Shown here: positions 697 to 6,252 of the stretch, in pieces
Layout: each line of letters starts with the position of its first letter
Numbering within the stretch: the stretch's first letter is position 1
Source of the DNA: Actinopolymorpha pittospori
Lineage (GTDB): Bacteria > Actinomycetota > Actinomycetes > Propionibacteriales > Actinopolymorphaceae
DNA: 64,000 nucleotides
Reading direction: 5' to 3'
Assembly (NCBI RefSeq): GCF_014873875.1
Contig: NZ_JADBEM010000001.1
Span: 1,674,001 to 1,738,000, forward strand
Made by a program: the position numbers and the translations under genes
Notes under the pieces: model-generated
The model's database searches: none
What the model saw: the letters and a program-made list of their open reading frames with translations, nothing else
What the model was told of the DNA's origin: nothing

Positions 697-1514
697 CCGA
701 ACCGACAGCCCGTACGGCAACCAGCACAGCGATCGCGGACACCGCGCCCGCGAGCAGACCGACGTCCCACACCGGCCCGGCGGTGCGGATGCGGAGCATC
801 GTGCGCAGCTTCGGCGACCGCAGAGTCCTCGACGCACTCGACCTCGACATCGGGCAGGGAGAGTTCGTGGCGCTGCTGGGCCGCAGCGGATCGGGCAAGA
901 GCACCTTGCTCCGGGCGCTGGCCGGCCTCGACTACGGCGTCGCCGGCTCCGGCACGATCGACGTACCTCCGACCGTCTCCGTCGTCTTCCAGGACTCGCG
1001 ACTCCTACCCTGGCAACGTGTCCTTGACAACGTGGTACTCGGCCTGGACGGGCAGTCGGCACGGGAGAGAGCACGGGAAAGCCTCGCCGAGGTAGGCCTG
1101 GCCGGCCGCGAACGAGCCTGGCCCACCCAGCTCTCCGGTGGGGAGCAACAACGGGTTGCGCTGGCCCGTTCTCTGGTCCGCGAACCCGAACTCCTCCTCG
1201 CCGACGAGCCGTTCGGCAGTCTCGACGCCCTGACCAGAATCCGGATGCACCGGCTGCTCCGCCAACTCTGCGACCGGCACCGCCCCGCGGTCCTACTCGT
1301 CACCCACGACGTCGACGAGGCGATCGTGCTCGCCGACCGGGTGGTGGTCCTCGACCAGGGGCGGATCGTCTCCGACCTCGCCATCGACCTCGGCCAACCA
1401 CGCAGCCCGGCCGACCCGGAGTTCGCCCGGCTCCGAACGCACCTGCTGACCACCCTCGGCACCGGCGGCGGGTCGGACCCGTCCGCCCGCGACCACGCGA
1501 CGGAGCCCCGATGA
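672..1514 (+). CDS. ABC transporter ATP-binding protein, SsuB/TauB type
   Basis: Cytoplasmic ATPase partner of the preceding permease, 280 aa. ATG at 672 was chosen because it overlaps the permease stop and leaves a normal-length protein; the open frame further upstream is only permease antiframe. After a 38-residue Ala/Thr-rich leader come Walker A GRSGSGKST (70-78), a Q-loop VVFQDSRLLPW, signature LSGGEQQR (about 157), Walker B LLLADEP and H-loop THDVDEA. All catalytic positions are intact. The stop overlaps the next start by 4 bp (ATGA), making permease, ATPase and monooxygenase one operon. Confidence 0.9.
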   Translation: MATHPGGLTEPTARTATSTAIADTAPASRPTSHTGPAVRMRSIVRSFGDRRVLDALDLDIGQGEFVALLGRSGSGKSTLLRALAGLDYGVAGSGTIDVPPTVSVVFQDSRLLPWQRVLDNVVLGLDGQSARERARESLAEVGLAGRERAWPTQLSGGEQQRVALARSLVREPELLLADEPFGSLDALTRIRMHRLLRQLCDRHRPAVLLVTHDVDEAIVLADRVVVLDQGRIVSDLAIDLGQPRSPADPEFARLRTHLLTTLGTGGGSDPSARDHATEPR

Positions 1515-2241
1515 GTACGAAACACCTGCACCTGAACGCGTTCCTCATGAGCACCGGACACCACGAGGCGTCCTGGCGGCTGCCGGAGAGCAACCCGATC
1601 GCCAACACCGACGTCGAGCACTACCGCGAGCTCGCCCGGATCGCCGAACGGGGAACGTTCGACTCGATCTTCTTCGCCGACAGTCCCGCGCTGTTCAACG
1701 AGGTCGGACGCCGGCCCTCCGGTGCGTTGGAGCTGACGGTGCTGCTGACCGCGATCGCCCCGGCGACCGAACGGATCGGACTGATCGCCACCGCCTCCAC
1801 GACCTACAACGACCCGTACAACCTCGCCCGCCGGTTCGCCTCCGTCGACCACGTGAGCGGCGGCCGCGCCGGCTGGAACGTCGTCATCACGGCGACACTC
1901 GAGGCGGCCCGCAACTTCGGAATGGAGGAGTTACCGAGCCACCGGGACCGCTACCAGGCGCGGCGGAGTTCATCGAGGTGTCGCACAAGCTGTGGGACAG
2001 CTGGCAGGACGACGCCACCCTCGCCGACAAGGAGCGCGGCGTGTAGGGCGACGGGGAGCGCGTCCACCGGATCAACCACGTCGGGCGGTACTTCAGGGTG
2101 CAGGGCCCGCTCAACCTGCCCCGCTCGCCGCAGGCGTACCCGCTGCTCGTGCAGGCCGGGTCGTCGGAGGATGGCAAGGAACTGGCCGCGAAGTACGCCG
2201 AAGCGGTGTTCACCGCACAGCAGACCGTTGCCTTCGGGTGA
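1511..2241 (+). pseudogene. NtaA/SnaA/DszA-family FMN-dependent monooxygenase, decayed
   Basis: N-terminal half of a bacterial-luciferase-like monooxygenase of the nitrilotriacetate/dibenzothiophene-sulfone group. The family start is recognisable (HLNAFLMSTGHHEASWR), followed by ITATLEAARNFG and then a frame break near 1957. In the +1 frame the family sequence continues (AAEFIEVSHKLWDSWQDD), meets an in-frame TAG at 2044-2046 and runs on to AEAVFTAQQT before family similarity stops at the IS end near 2233. Intact members are about 430-450 aa; here roughly 240 codons remain, with one frameshift, one nonsense codon and no C-terminus. Its ATG overlaps the ATPase stop, so it was the third gene of the transporter operon. 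Confidence 0.85.
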
Positions 2242-2244
2242 GCA

Positions 2245-2330
2245 AACGTGAGCATGCTCATCATCAGGCAGCCTCACCTTGCGGTGAGGCAGTCCCCGTC
2301 TGATCCAGTGGTTGCTGGTGCGGGGTTGAC
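2245..2330 (-). ncRNA. Putative omega RNA 3' end / right-end hairpins of the IS607 element
   Basis: Two structures flank the tnpB stop: a perfect 12-bp palindrome TGAGCATGCTCA at 2249-2260 and a hairpin GCCTCACC-TTGC-GGTGAGGC at 2271-2290 overlapping the last tnpB codons. In TnpB systems the guide (omega) RNA scaffold overlaps the tnpB 3' end and runs to the element boundary. Placing it here is inference from that architecture; no transcript or covariance evidence is available. Confidence 0.4.
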
Positions 2331-3070
2331 GTTTCGCGGCCTGCTGCGTTGACCACTGGCGTGGTCGCGGTCTCCTGCGTGGCTCCACGTCCGTCTCCCA
2401 CCCTGCCGTCGTTGGTCTGGTGGGCGGCCGGTCTACTCCCGGTACCGGTCCCCGTTCCACCCGTGTGCAGGGTGTCGCCGAGGCGGGCGAGGTTGATCGC
2501 GGCGTTGCGATCACGGTCGATCATGACTTCGCAGTGTTCACACGCATAGGTCCGGTCGGCCAGGGTCAGGTTTGGTTTTCGCCTGCCGCAGGCCGAACAG
2601 GTCTTGGATGAGGGGTAGAACCTGGGTACTTCCACCAGGGTGGAGCCGTACCAGCGGGTCTTGTAGGCGAGCATCCGCCGGATCTGCGCCAACGCCGCGT
2701 CAGCAAGTGCCCGGTTCAGGCCCCGCTTGTAGGCACCACCAGCCGAGCGCATGCCGGAGGCGTTCAACGTCTCCACCGTGATGACCTGGTGGCGTTGCGC
2801 GAGGAAGGTGGTGGCCTTGTGCAGCACGTCCCGACGCAGGGCCGCCGCACGGGCATGCGTTCGGCCGATGCGGGCCTGCGTGTGCTGCCACCCCTTCGAC
2901 GGAGCCCGCCTGGCCTTCGTGGCCGGATCGTAGGGACCGATCTGGCGCGCCGCGCGTCGTTGCAGCACCCGCAGCCGGGCCTGCGCCGCGGTCAGCGACT
3001 TCGGGGCACCAACCCTGCCCAGTTCACGACCATCCGGGGTCGCGACCACCAACAACGCGTCCGCCTTCAC
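2264..3070 (-). pseudogene. tnpB: TnpB, C-terminal part (RuvC II/III and zinc finger)
   Basis: Second half of a split IS607-type TnpB, 268 codons from a GTG that overlaps the stop of the first half (GTGA). It carries the RuvC-II glutamate (ITVETLN), the CxxC...CxxC zinc ribbon (CSACGRRKPN ... CEHC) and the RuvC-III aspartate (DRDRNAAINLAR), then a 65-residue low-complexity tail typical of actinobacterial IS607 TnpB. Removing 11 bp (GTGAAGGCGAG, duplicated at 3062-3081) fuses it in frame to the first half. Translational coupling could in principle yield a two-part protein, but a slippage-type mutation is the simpler reading. Confidence 0.8.
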
Positions 3071-3768
3071 CTCGCCTTCACCCCCACATCCACGCCCACC
3101 ACCGGTTCGCGACGCCCGACATGCCCGGGCACCCCTGCGGCGCGCTGAAGGACGGCCTGGAAAGACACATGCCAGCGTCCAGCAGAGTCATGGGCCAGGG
3201 TGGCGGACAGGATTCGGGCGGTACCCGCCTCGACGCGGCGGGCGAGTTTGCGGGTGGACTCATGCGTCTTGAGCCTGCCCAGTCGCGGGAGGGTGACGTG
3301 GTGCCGGTCGGGTTCGACCCGGATCGTTCCGGTGGTGAACCGCACCGACGCGTGGGACCGCTTCGACTTGAACCGGGGGAACCCAACCGCCCGCCCGGCG
3401 CGCTGGCCCCTCCGCGACTTGGACCAGGCATCCAAGCCGCGCGCTAGGGCATCCAGGCCGGTGCTGTAGGCCTCCTTGGAGTTCTCACCCCACCACGGCG
3501 CCACGCTGTCCTTGCGGGCATTCCACTCCCGCCGCAACGCGGGAAGGAACCAACCCAACGTCGGGGTGAGGCCCTCCTCCGGCACGGCGTAGCTGCGCTC
3601 GGCCACCCGCTGGTCCATCACCGCCCGCACCAGACCGAGCATCGTGTTGTGCGCCTTACGGGCACCACCCGCATGCGACCAAAACCTCCGCTCCTGGACG
3701 GGCGTGGGGTCAAGCGCGTACCGGTACGCCTGCACCACCCAGCCATCGGGGACCTCGAACCTGGCCAT
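3067..3768 (-). pseudogene. tnpB: TnpB, N-terminal part
   Basis: First half of the split TnpB, 233 codons from ATG 3768 (a GTG one codon earlier is also possible). It opens with the usual QAYRYALDPTPVQE segment, contains the GFPRFKSKR signature of the OrfB/TnpB family, and reaches the RuvC-I motif VVGVDVGVK (Asp about residue 227) just before the premature TGA at 3067-3069. Its start overlaps the tnpA stop (GTGATG), as in intact IS607 elements. Loss of frame directly after RuvC-I separates the nuclease acid residues onto two polypeptides. Confidence 0.8.
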
Positions 3769-4286
3769 CACACCACCCCCGCGTGCGACAACGCGTCCGG
3801 CACCGCCACTGGCTCCGGGGCGGTGGTCTTGGCGGCGGTGACCGCCCCCATCGCCCGGGCCCTAGTACCACGACGGCCGTACAACCTCACGCACATTCCG
3901 GTGAGCACCTCGATCATGTCGGCCACCAGATCATCGGTGGTCTCACCATCGTCGGTGGTCTCACCGGGGTCGGCGACAACGATCCGGCGGCCCTGGCCCG
4001 ACAGGGCCGCTTCCAGATGCTCCACGCCGAAGCGGGCGAGCCGGTCGCGGTGTTCCACAACCACCACCATGGCAGACGCCTCCGACAAGACGCGTGTCAA
4101 CTTCGGCCGCCTCCCGTTCAGCCCCGACCCAACCTCGGTGACAACCTCAGCAGCGCTATGGCCGTGAGTCATGGCCAGAGGACGTGCCCAACCAGAAAGC
4201 CGAGCGACCTGCCGATCCAAACCCGCGCGCCGGTCATGCGAAGACACCGGTTCATACACCACCGCCCGACCGCCCCTCAGCAACAT
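3768..4286 (-). pseudogene. tnpA: IS607 serine recombinase TnpA, N-terminally truncated
   Basis: Small serine recombinase of IS607 type: family segments GLDRQVARL, VVVEHRDRLARFGVEHL and MCVRLYGRR are present. The N-terminal helix-turn-helix that normally precedes the catalytic domain is absent: an in-frame TGA lies 30 bp upstream of ATG 4286, and only degenerate look-alike sequence (LRSGTVCFD) can be read in a neighbouring frame. The resolvase active-site segment reads VVYEPVSS where the family has Y-A-R-V-S-S. The serine is present, but the conserved arginine two residues before it is Pro. Likely inactive on both counts. Confidence 0.75.
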
Positions 4287-4393
4287 CGAAACAGACCGTG
4301 CCCGACCTCAACCGCCGAACTCGCGGCTGTCGCCGGGCATACATGCGCCGAGAACCTTCAAGATCGCGAGCGTCCGGCGGACCGCGACCGCGT

Positions 4394-5173
4394 TCACCAG
4401 GTCAGGTCGGCGACCAGGGGCAGGTGGTCGGAGGCGTCGACGTCGGTGCGGACCCTGACGGCTTCCACCGTGATGTCGGGCGAGACGAGTACGTAGTCGA
4501 TCCGGCGTTCCGGCTGGGCGGCGGAGAAGGTGTAGCCCGCGTCCTCCTCGGCTGCGTGAACGGCAGACCAGGCGTCGACCAGCACCTCGGTGAGCAGCTT
4601 GAGTTCTGGCGTACCGGGAAGGGCGTTCAGGTCGCCGGTCACGATGGTCCGGCGGGGCGTGGGGCCGAGGAGTTCGCGGATCCGCGCCGCCTCCTTCTCC
4701 CGGGCGCGCGGGCTGGCTTCGCTGAGGTGGGTGGTGGCGAAGCACAGCGGTTGCGGCGCTCCCTGTCCCGAAGCCAGGTCGACTTCGGCGGCGAGGAAAC
4801 CCCGTGGCTCCCCGCCCTGGACGCCTGGCAAGGAGGAGTTGACGAAGGAACGGATCGGGTAGCGGGACAGGATCGCGGTGCCGTACTGGCGGCGTTCCTG
4901 GCCCACGGCGACAGGGTGCAGGTCGAGGTTGGCGGCGTAGACGACCCGCATCTCCAACCGTTCGGCGAGCCAACCGGCCTGGTCGGCGAACGCGCTGCGC
5001 TCCGACCAGTGCCGGTCGACTTCCTGCAGGCCCACGAGTCCGGCCCCGGAGGCGGCGATCACCGCCGCGGTTCGGGCGAGGTCGAGCCGGTCGGCGACGT
5101 CTGCTCCGTGATGGATGTTGTACGTCGCGACCCGCAAACTCGTCAGCCCCTGCTCGTGGTGCCCATCGTTCAT
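4394..5173 (-). CDS. Endonuclease/exonuclease/phosphatase (EEP) family protein, cytoplasmic
   Basis: EEP-fold metal-dependent phosphoesterase of 259 aa without a signal peptide. Visible motifs: ATYNIHHG (about residues 16-23), LQEVDRHWSERSAF (catalytic Glu, about 50), TGDLNALPGT (Asp/Asn) and SDHLPLVADL (His) at the C-terminus. The next gene upstream is a secreted paralogue with the same motifs, so this is a local duplication with changed localisation. The substrate (phosphoinositide, nucleic acid or sphingomyelin-type phosphodiester) cannot be assigned from sequence. Confidence 0.85.
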   Translation of the reverse strand: MNDGHHEQGLTSLRVATYNIHHGADVADRLDLARTAAVIAASGAGLVGLQEVDRHWSERSAFADQAGWLAERLEMRVVYAANLDLHPVAVGQERRQYGTAILSRYPIRSFVNSSLPGVQGGEPRGFLAAEVDLASGQGAPQPLCFATTHLSEASPRAREKEAARIRELLGPTPRRTIVTGDLNALPGTPELKLLTEVLVDAWSAVHAAEEDAGYTFSAAQPERRIDYVLVSPDITVEAVRVRTDVDASDHLPLVADLTW

Positions 5174-5197: not shown

Positions 5198-6046
5198 TCA
5201 CCGGCGGACGGCGAAGTCGGCCACCATCGGCAGGTGGTCGGAGCCGTCAGCGGTGGTGAGCACCTGGGTCTTGCGGGGCTGCAGGTCCGGCGAGCTCAGC
5301 ACGAAGTCGATGCGGGCGTGCGGGTCCTCCTGGGAGTAGGTGTAGCCGTCACCCACGCCGACCTCGGCCCAGGAGTCGGTGAAGACACTGGTCAGCGTCT
5401 TGATCTCGGTCGTGTCGGCGGTGGCGTTGAGGTCACCGGTGAGAACCGTCCGCTTGGGGTTGTCACCGAGGAGTTCGACGATCTTCTCCGCCTGCATGAT
5501 CCGCTCAGCGGAGTTGTCGTGCTGCAGGTGGGTGTTGGCGAAGCGCATCTCCACACCGCGCACCTTGATGTCGGCGACCAGCAGACCGCGCTGCTCGTGG
5601 TTGTCGATCTTCGGCAGGTAGGTGTTGCTCCAGGACCGGATCGGGAAGCGGGACAGGATCGCCGTGCCGTACTGGCGACGCTCCTGGCCGGGCGCTGCCG
5701 GGTCCATGTCGAGGTTCGCGCCGTACACGACGTGCATGTCCAGCGCGTCGGCGAGCCAGGCCGCCTCGTCGACGAAGGCGCTGCGCTCGCTCCAGTGCCG
5801 GTCGACCTCCTGCAGGCCGATCACGTCCGCGCGGAGTTGGCGGATCTCTCCGGCGACGTCGGCCAGGTCGAGCACGTCGTCGGGGCCGGCGGCGTGGTGG
5901 ATGTTGTACGTCGCCACCCGCAGCCGGACCGGCTGCCCCTCCGCGTTGGCGGGCACGGCGGCCGCACCGACCGAGGTGGCCAGCATCACCGCGGCGGCAC
6001 CCACGAGGGTGAGGACACGCGCGAGGCGCGGAATACGTCGAAGCAC
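5198..6046 (-). CDS. Secreted endonuclease/exonuclease/phosphatase family protein
   Basis: Exported EEP-fold hydrolase, 282 aa from GTG 6046. That start was chosen because AAGGGAGCT lies about 5 bases upstream and the N-terminus then becomes a clean signal peptide (LRRIPRLARVLTLVGAAAV ... GAAAVPANAEG, cleavage near residue 36). Catalytic motifs match its neighbour: ATYNIHHAAG, LQEVDRHWSERSAF, TGDLNATADT, SDHLPMVADF. The block around EVDRHWSERSAF is identical in both paralogues, indicating a fairly recent tandem duplication. It lies 24 bp upstream of the cytoplasmic copy on the same strand, so they are probably cotranscribed. Confidence 0.87.
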   Translation of the reverse strand: MLRRIPRLARVLTLVGAAAVMLATSVGAAAVPANAEGQPVRLRVATYNIHHAAGPDDVLDLADVAGEIRQLRADVIGLQEVDRHWSERSAFVDEAAWLADALDMHVVYGANLDMDPAAPGQERRQYGTAILSRFPIRSWSNTYLPKIDNHEQRGLLVADIKVRGVEMRFANTHLQHDNSAERIMQAEKIVELLGDNPKRTVLTGDLNATADTTEIKTLTSVFTDSWAEVGVGDGYTYSQEDPHARIDFVLSSPDLQPRKTQVLTTADGSDHLPMVADFAVRR

Positions 6047-6252
6047 GAACAGCTCCCTTCCCGGCAACTGAACTGGGTCGAGCACCCATCCCACAAGGCC
6101 CGCAGGGCCTGAGCGTGCACGGCGCATTAACACTCGGCGACGAGCCCGACCCCGGCGGTGCATGCCAAGCTAGCGCTTTCCGGTCCTGGGCGGATCTGCG
6201 CGCGCCCGGACCGGCCGATGCCGGTCAGGACACCACGGAGGGCAGCCCGGAC

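Follow-up and report, generated by a model that had tools for sequence, protein, structure and literature searches.

IS607-family elements need only tnpA for transposition, and the DNA-binding domain of the TnpA protein is N-terminal, according to the excerpted text of PMC6188088. In the TnpB of ISDra2, the D191A replacement in the RuvC site blocks cleavage, as stated in the available part of PMC8612924. A gene named tnpB has also been described in two parts: that of Tn6260, on a Proteus mirabilis plasmid, is split by the insertion of an IS (PMC6737455, excerpt). A search of the open-access literature for a split TnpB led to this gene and to the tripartite RuvC of Cas12 proteins, and none of the matches listed describes a working two-chain TnpB.

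Here we consider a stretch of 64,000 nucleotides from the genome of Actinopolymorpha pittospori (hereafter, the window), in which a tnpB gene is divided into two open reading frames. We put at about 0.9 the probability that the locus represents an IS607-family element in decay, truncated and immobile, the nuclease of which is most likely dead. The initial annotation had already ranked decay above a working two-chain TnpB, and this ranking agrees with the lost left end, the lost TnpA domain, the breakpoint and the broken host gene that came to light upon comparison with related loci.

The lesion in tnpB is small. On the plus strand, the sequence at window positions 3062-3071 (CGCCTTCACC) recurs at 3073-3082, i.e. 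10 consecutive bases match at a lag of 11; because the last base differs between the two 11-mers, this is a 10-of-11 duplication covering 3062-3082, one base more than the 3062-3081 originally reported. By itself, the repeat proves little because 0.38 period-11 repeats of this length are expected by chance per 64 kb (50 second-order Markov simulations). That there was an insertion is established by comparison: the duplication is missing from all 20 other TnpB copies examined (9 from the same genome and 11 from other records, with L024, L033 and L034, which also gave TnpB matches, left outside the set), in every one of which a single copy is read through the [GA]-[VI]-D-x-G motif. The search for the same split in related IS607 copies, proposed along with the original claim, thus found it in none of the 20. 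The frame shift puts a TGA at 3069-3067 and a GTG at 3070, and the GTGA overlap at 3067-3070 is just as first described. The cut falls after VGVDVGVK, immediately past the RuvC-I aspartate, so that the upstream reading frame (3067-3771, minus strand) ends with VDVGVKAR and the stop, and the downstream one (2264-3070, minus strand) starts with GTG and reads VKADALLVV.

The two frames match adjoining parts of NF038280, the NCBIfam model IS607_TnpB: the N-terminal half, which also matches PF12323, covers positions 1-212 of 431 (279.9 bits) and the C-terminal half, with matches to PF07282 and PF01385, covers positions 213-420 (177.1 bits). Hence, tnpB is one gene in two pieces, and these adjacent matches, together with the repeat and the 20 copies that lack the insertion, bear out the proposal that a tandem duplication split the gene. 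Neither half reaches the curated cut-off of the model, which is 350 bits for one protein; the uninterrupted TnpB of Trebonia kvetii (L028) scores 464.9 bits. In place of the one continuous frame of an IS607-family TnpB there are two, and, judged by its profile matches, the tnpB of the window belongs to this family but is broken. In alignments with relatives, the RuvC triad D, E, D, which we take to be the catalytic residues, and the four zinc-ribbon cysteines are all present: VGVDVG, with the RuvC-I aspartate, lies in the N-terminal half, and TVETL, IDRDRN and CSACG...CEHC lie in the C-terminal half, which comprises RuvC-II, the zinc ribbon and RuvC-III.

The rest of the tnpB sequence looks well preserved. 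The window copy has private changes in 6 of 183 otherwise invariant columns, compared to 3-16 of 180-193 columns in six other copies, one of which, L038, has itself a broken frame. Pairwise dN/dS values are 0.12-0.26 between the window and its relatives and 0.14-0.34 among the relatives, i.e. about within the same range, and, by these measures, TnpB shows no apparent sign of relaxed constraint. Because TnpB lacks an excess of unusual substitutions, and because the right end of the element and an omega-RNA-like motif are intact, the split is probably recent, and TnpB was probably functional until recently.

In 16 of the 20 other copies, the frame is open through the split site over 466 codons or more, and the remaining four are broken elsewhere: about 80 codons past the motif in L050, from the same genus; a few codons past the same motif, by an apparent 1-bp deletion, in L031 from Rhodococcus sp. 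JCM 9791; and upstream of the motif in L042, from the same genome as the window, and in L038, from the genome G018. These four resemble the window copy in having a broken tnpB frame and, in the case of L031, L050 and L042, a damaged tnpA as well; they differ from it in that each carries its own lesion and that the tnpA of L038 is open. A glycine riboswitch motif is found at positions 60-155 of L038, just upstream of its IS607-type tnpA, the frame of which is open. Within the genome that contains the window, eight of the nine other tnpB copies are open at the split site over at least 466 codons, and at most four of the nine (L043, L045, L046 and L047) have a full-length tnpA in one frame with no stop. 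This genome measures 10.56 Mb with an estimated contamination of 8.3%; five genomes of the same genus measure 6.4-8.0 Mb. Close relatives of the C-terminal half are scarce: at E 1e-60 they occur in two of the eight genomes from the family, and at E 1e-75 in three of the 394 from the class, in both cases with the genome of the window counted. At E 1e-50, nine records of the plasmid collection match this half (three of these were inspected and each carries the annotation of a single tnpB), and no match was found in the phage collection at the same threshold, nor in viral contigs.

What, then, is left of the element around the split gene? Its right end, at 2225-2266 (minus strand), ends with ...GGCAACGG, and the similarity to seven relatives stops at 2223-2225; six of these seven have the same terminus and one, L021, has GACAACAG instead (an eighth relative, L032, stops at its contig end and falls outside this comparison). 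GG at the element ends fits IS607 elements as described in the excerpted text of PMC6188088. Next to the right end, over the 3' end of tnpB, lies the RNA motif RF03015 ('Transposase-2') at 2267-2335 on the minus strand, which matches its model over the full length (positions 1-69 of 69) with 65.8 bits against a gathering threshold of 42.7; the motif was found in all eight relatives searched, with 55.7-68.7 bits. This is the arrangement of an omega-RNA locus, with a conserved RNA motif at the 3' end of tnpB beside the right end, and, from its position, we infer that the motif corresponds to the guide scaffold (omega-RNA/reRNA). For the expected guide, i.e. the 16 bases past the right end, no second target with at most one mismatch was found in the same genome.

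On the side of tnpA, the similarity to related elements stops at 4272, and when the left end of four relatives was searched together with their DNA-binding-domain stretch, the window gave no match. The element thus has a right end and no left end, in contrast to the two ends of an IS607 element. We considered whether the left part survives elsewhere in the genome. The sole match to the left-end stretch of L028, at 7.11 Mb and with 71% identity, belongs to a separate copy because its tnpA (L039) also covers the part that is retained in the window, and this candidate was rejected. The locus L039 (positions 2162-2611) is a lone tnpA with no tnpB match.

The flanking DNA tells how the left end could have been lost. 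Beside the right end, positions 1511-2230 (plus strand) hold the 5' part of a luciferase-like monooxygenase pseudogene, recognized by Pfam PF00296, synteny and alignment to an uninterrupted copy (L058), into which the element inserted. Compared to L058, this remnant lacks 1 bp near 1954, and at 2044-2046 the TGG of L058 is replaced by TAG. A search of the same genome for the 3' half gave nothing except, at another place, a match of 214 bases with 69% identity. When the initial 20 kb of the window were compared with 19-kb stretches of the related genomes G002-G006, the latter aligned up to 2225-2232 and not beyond, and host synteny resumes in related genomes at 4406 or 4418. The two flanks of the window are not neighbours in relatives: in G004, the left flank is located at 194 kb and the right flank at 1,074 kb. 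Because the DNA that follows the element aligns far from the monooxygenase gene, a rearrangement must have taken away the left end, with its endpoint inside or ahead of tnpA. The junction can be confined to 4273-4405: the left end is gone along with positions 1-54 of the TnpA model, and the sequence continues as host DNA from a different part of the chromosome. The genes up- and downstream of the broken stretch are open frames. The monooxygenase pseudogene is adjoined by open genes that, by inspection, look like an ABC-transporter permease and ATPase, and two neighbouring genes of the endonuclease/exonuclease/phosphatase family (4394-5173 and 5198-6163) lie beside the breakpoint. Further along, from 13993 onward, the window contains a short tandem array with a 9-base period, in which 41 bases match at lag 9. 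Elsewhere in the genome, three loci (L063, L064 and L065) match a relative in what we presume to be its Ku gene region; two of the three have the same score and are separated by some 57 kb, on opposite strands.

The remnant of tnpA (3768-4286, minus strand) encodes the catalytic domain of an IS607 serine transposase and nothing else, as judged from the profile and from alignment with four relatives. Its match to NF033518 scores 135.6 bits, above the cut-off of 110, but covers positions 55-186 of 187 only; as the match starts at position 55, the N-terminal DNA-binding domain is missing, so that of the two domains of an IS607 TnpA (DNA-binding and serine recombinase catalytic) one remains. The missing domain is absent from the window, where the only other hit is at chance level (E 0.065). 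The remnant itself is altered. It carries extra residues relative to its relatives, six of which come from an 18-bp in-frame tandem duplication (3930-3965), and it reads YEPVS where the four aligned relatives and two more read YARVS, a change by which a catalytic arginine of serine recombinases is lost. In a set of seven copies, the window has private changes in 12 of 82 otherwise invariant columns of tnpA and in 6 of 183 of tnpB (Fisher p = 0.002); a set of five copies gives 16 of 104 and 9 of 199 (p = 0.002), and a set of four gives 21 of 112 and 21 of 260 (p = 0.004). Five of the six other copies lack such an imbalance, and L085, on the Mycobacterium celatum plasmid pCLP, has it (15 of 85 and 3 of 180); L032 shows the opposite imbalance in the five- and four-copy sets (p = 0.02-0.04). 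The controls are not all healthy genes, since the N-terminal half of L032 has an in-frame gap and the tnpB of L038 is broken. The test by itself is no proof of lost function because L085 also shows the imbalance: the tnpA of this plasmid copy (L085, 1228-1821), for all its private changes, has an open frame. Furthermore, the pairwise dN/dS of tnpA is not raised (0.13-0.21 for the window and its relatives, 0.10-0.22 among the relatives), so that acceleration of TnpA is weakened as an argument for decay.

Taken together, these observations can be arranged into a scenario of stepwise decay. Comparison with related loci shows that the element inserted into the monooxygenase gene, with its right end at 2225, and that a rearrangement took away its left end, the part of TnpA that binds DNA and what remained of the host gene; the order of these events is the one that we propose. 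The stranded tnpB would then have gained the 11-bp tandem duplication, probably by replication slippage, which shifts the frame just after the RuvC-I aspartate. The N-terminal fragment thus has 234 residues, and translation from the overlapping GTG, should it occur, would give a C-terminal fragment of 268. A whole RuvC site is found in neither, and most likely the omega-RNA-like motif and the right end are all that is still intact. Under this scenario, tnpA was lost first and tnpB appears to have been constrained until shortly before the split, the order suggested by the element being that tnpA decays first and tnpB later. Seen as decay, the case is ordinary: a stranded element loses its last gene.

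The most substantial of the alternatives, although a very unlikely one, is that translation stops at the TGA and restarts at the GTG, and that both halves, together with the omega RNA, form a working nuclease or DNA-binding complex. The GTGA overlap seems to invite this reading, and the initial annotation noted that the GTG could let the C-terminal half be translated. In its favor, a Shine-Dalgarno-like GGGGGU (3080-3085, minus strand) is positioned nine bases before the GTG at 3070, with a duplex energy of -9.7 kcal/mol that exceeds the -9.2 kcal/mol at the natural start of tnpB and is equalled by 5.6% of 89 internal ATG/GTG codons; moreover, the catalytic residues, the zinc ribbon and the RNA motif are kept, and tnpB is not accelerated. 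However, when 8352 duplications of 11 bp were simulated in six uninterrupted tnpB genes, 4291 (51%) created a coupled NTGA. As half of the simulated duplications yield one, the coupling is no sign of design, and we reject the overlap as an indication of function. An overlap combined with an energy of -9 kcal/mol or lower is rarer (73 of 8352, 0.9%), for which reason the C-terminal half may be translated, and production of this fragment is plausible. The cut lies within RuvC-I and, in the AlphaFold model of an uninterrupted relative, falls in a loop between the strands 223-226 and 234-238, where confidence is poor (mean pLDDT 52.6); to our knowledge, there is no known case of a RuvC site reassembling after being cut between its first two strands. 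In addition, none of the 20 other copies shares the split, the rest of the element is a remnant, and the expected 16-base guide matches its own site alone in the genome. There is a similarly slim chance that, through the duplication, a one-chain TnpB has only now become two translationally coupled chains that still bind the omega RNA, perhaps as a nuclease-weak binder at its own locus. If the halves did work together, this would show a multi-chain RuvC nuclease arising by a single mutation. In any case, GTGA stop/start overlaps should not be taken as evidence of an evolved operon.

We consider it still less likely that the duplication is an assembly or sequencing error: the adjoining host gene also has a 1-bp deletion, but an entire 11-bp tandem copy would be an unusual error, the neighbouring genes are open, and the same element carries unrelated lesions. 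The least credible proposals invoke slippage. Ribosomes could slip by -1 at the GGGGG run that directly precedes the duplication and lies within the overlap of the two frames (ahead of the GTG at 3070, the C-terminal frame stays open over 117 nt), and so make some full-length TnpB with four extra residues, but by inspection the codons GGG GTG form no tandem-slip heptamer, and the added residues would lie in the turn after the catalytic aspartate. As for a reversible switch, in which replication drops one copy of the repeat and a subpopulation regains tnpB, the 10-bp identity at lag 11 would allow it, but the repeat has two copies only and switching would therefore be rare.

We return to the most probable reading, a decaying element, and to its place among known systems. 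The order tnpA-tnpB is common to the window, the element of Trebonia kvetii (L028) and that of the Mycobacterium celatum plasmid pCLP. The resemblance to Trebonia kvetii extends to NF038280, NF033518, the right end ...GGCAACGG and RF03015 at the 3' end of tnpB. Unlike these two elements, that of the window has lost its left end as well as the domain by which TnpA binds DNA, and its tnpB is split in RuvC-I. Solved structures (8bf8, 8ex9, 8exa and 8h1j) exist for a TnpB that we take to be of the ISDra2 type: the N-terminal half matches the sequence of the chain 8bf8_A at 20-146 and the C-terminal half at 231-371, so that one chain in the ISDra2-type protein corresponds to two reading frames in the window. 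The gene of Tn6260 that bears the same name, by which we liken it to the tnpB of the window, is likewise in two parts, there through the insertion of another element, according to the excerpted text of PMC6737455, and here through a tandem duplication of 11 bp.
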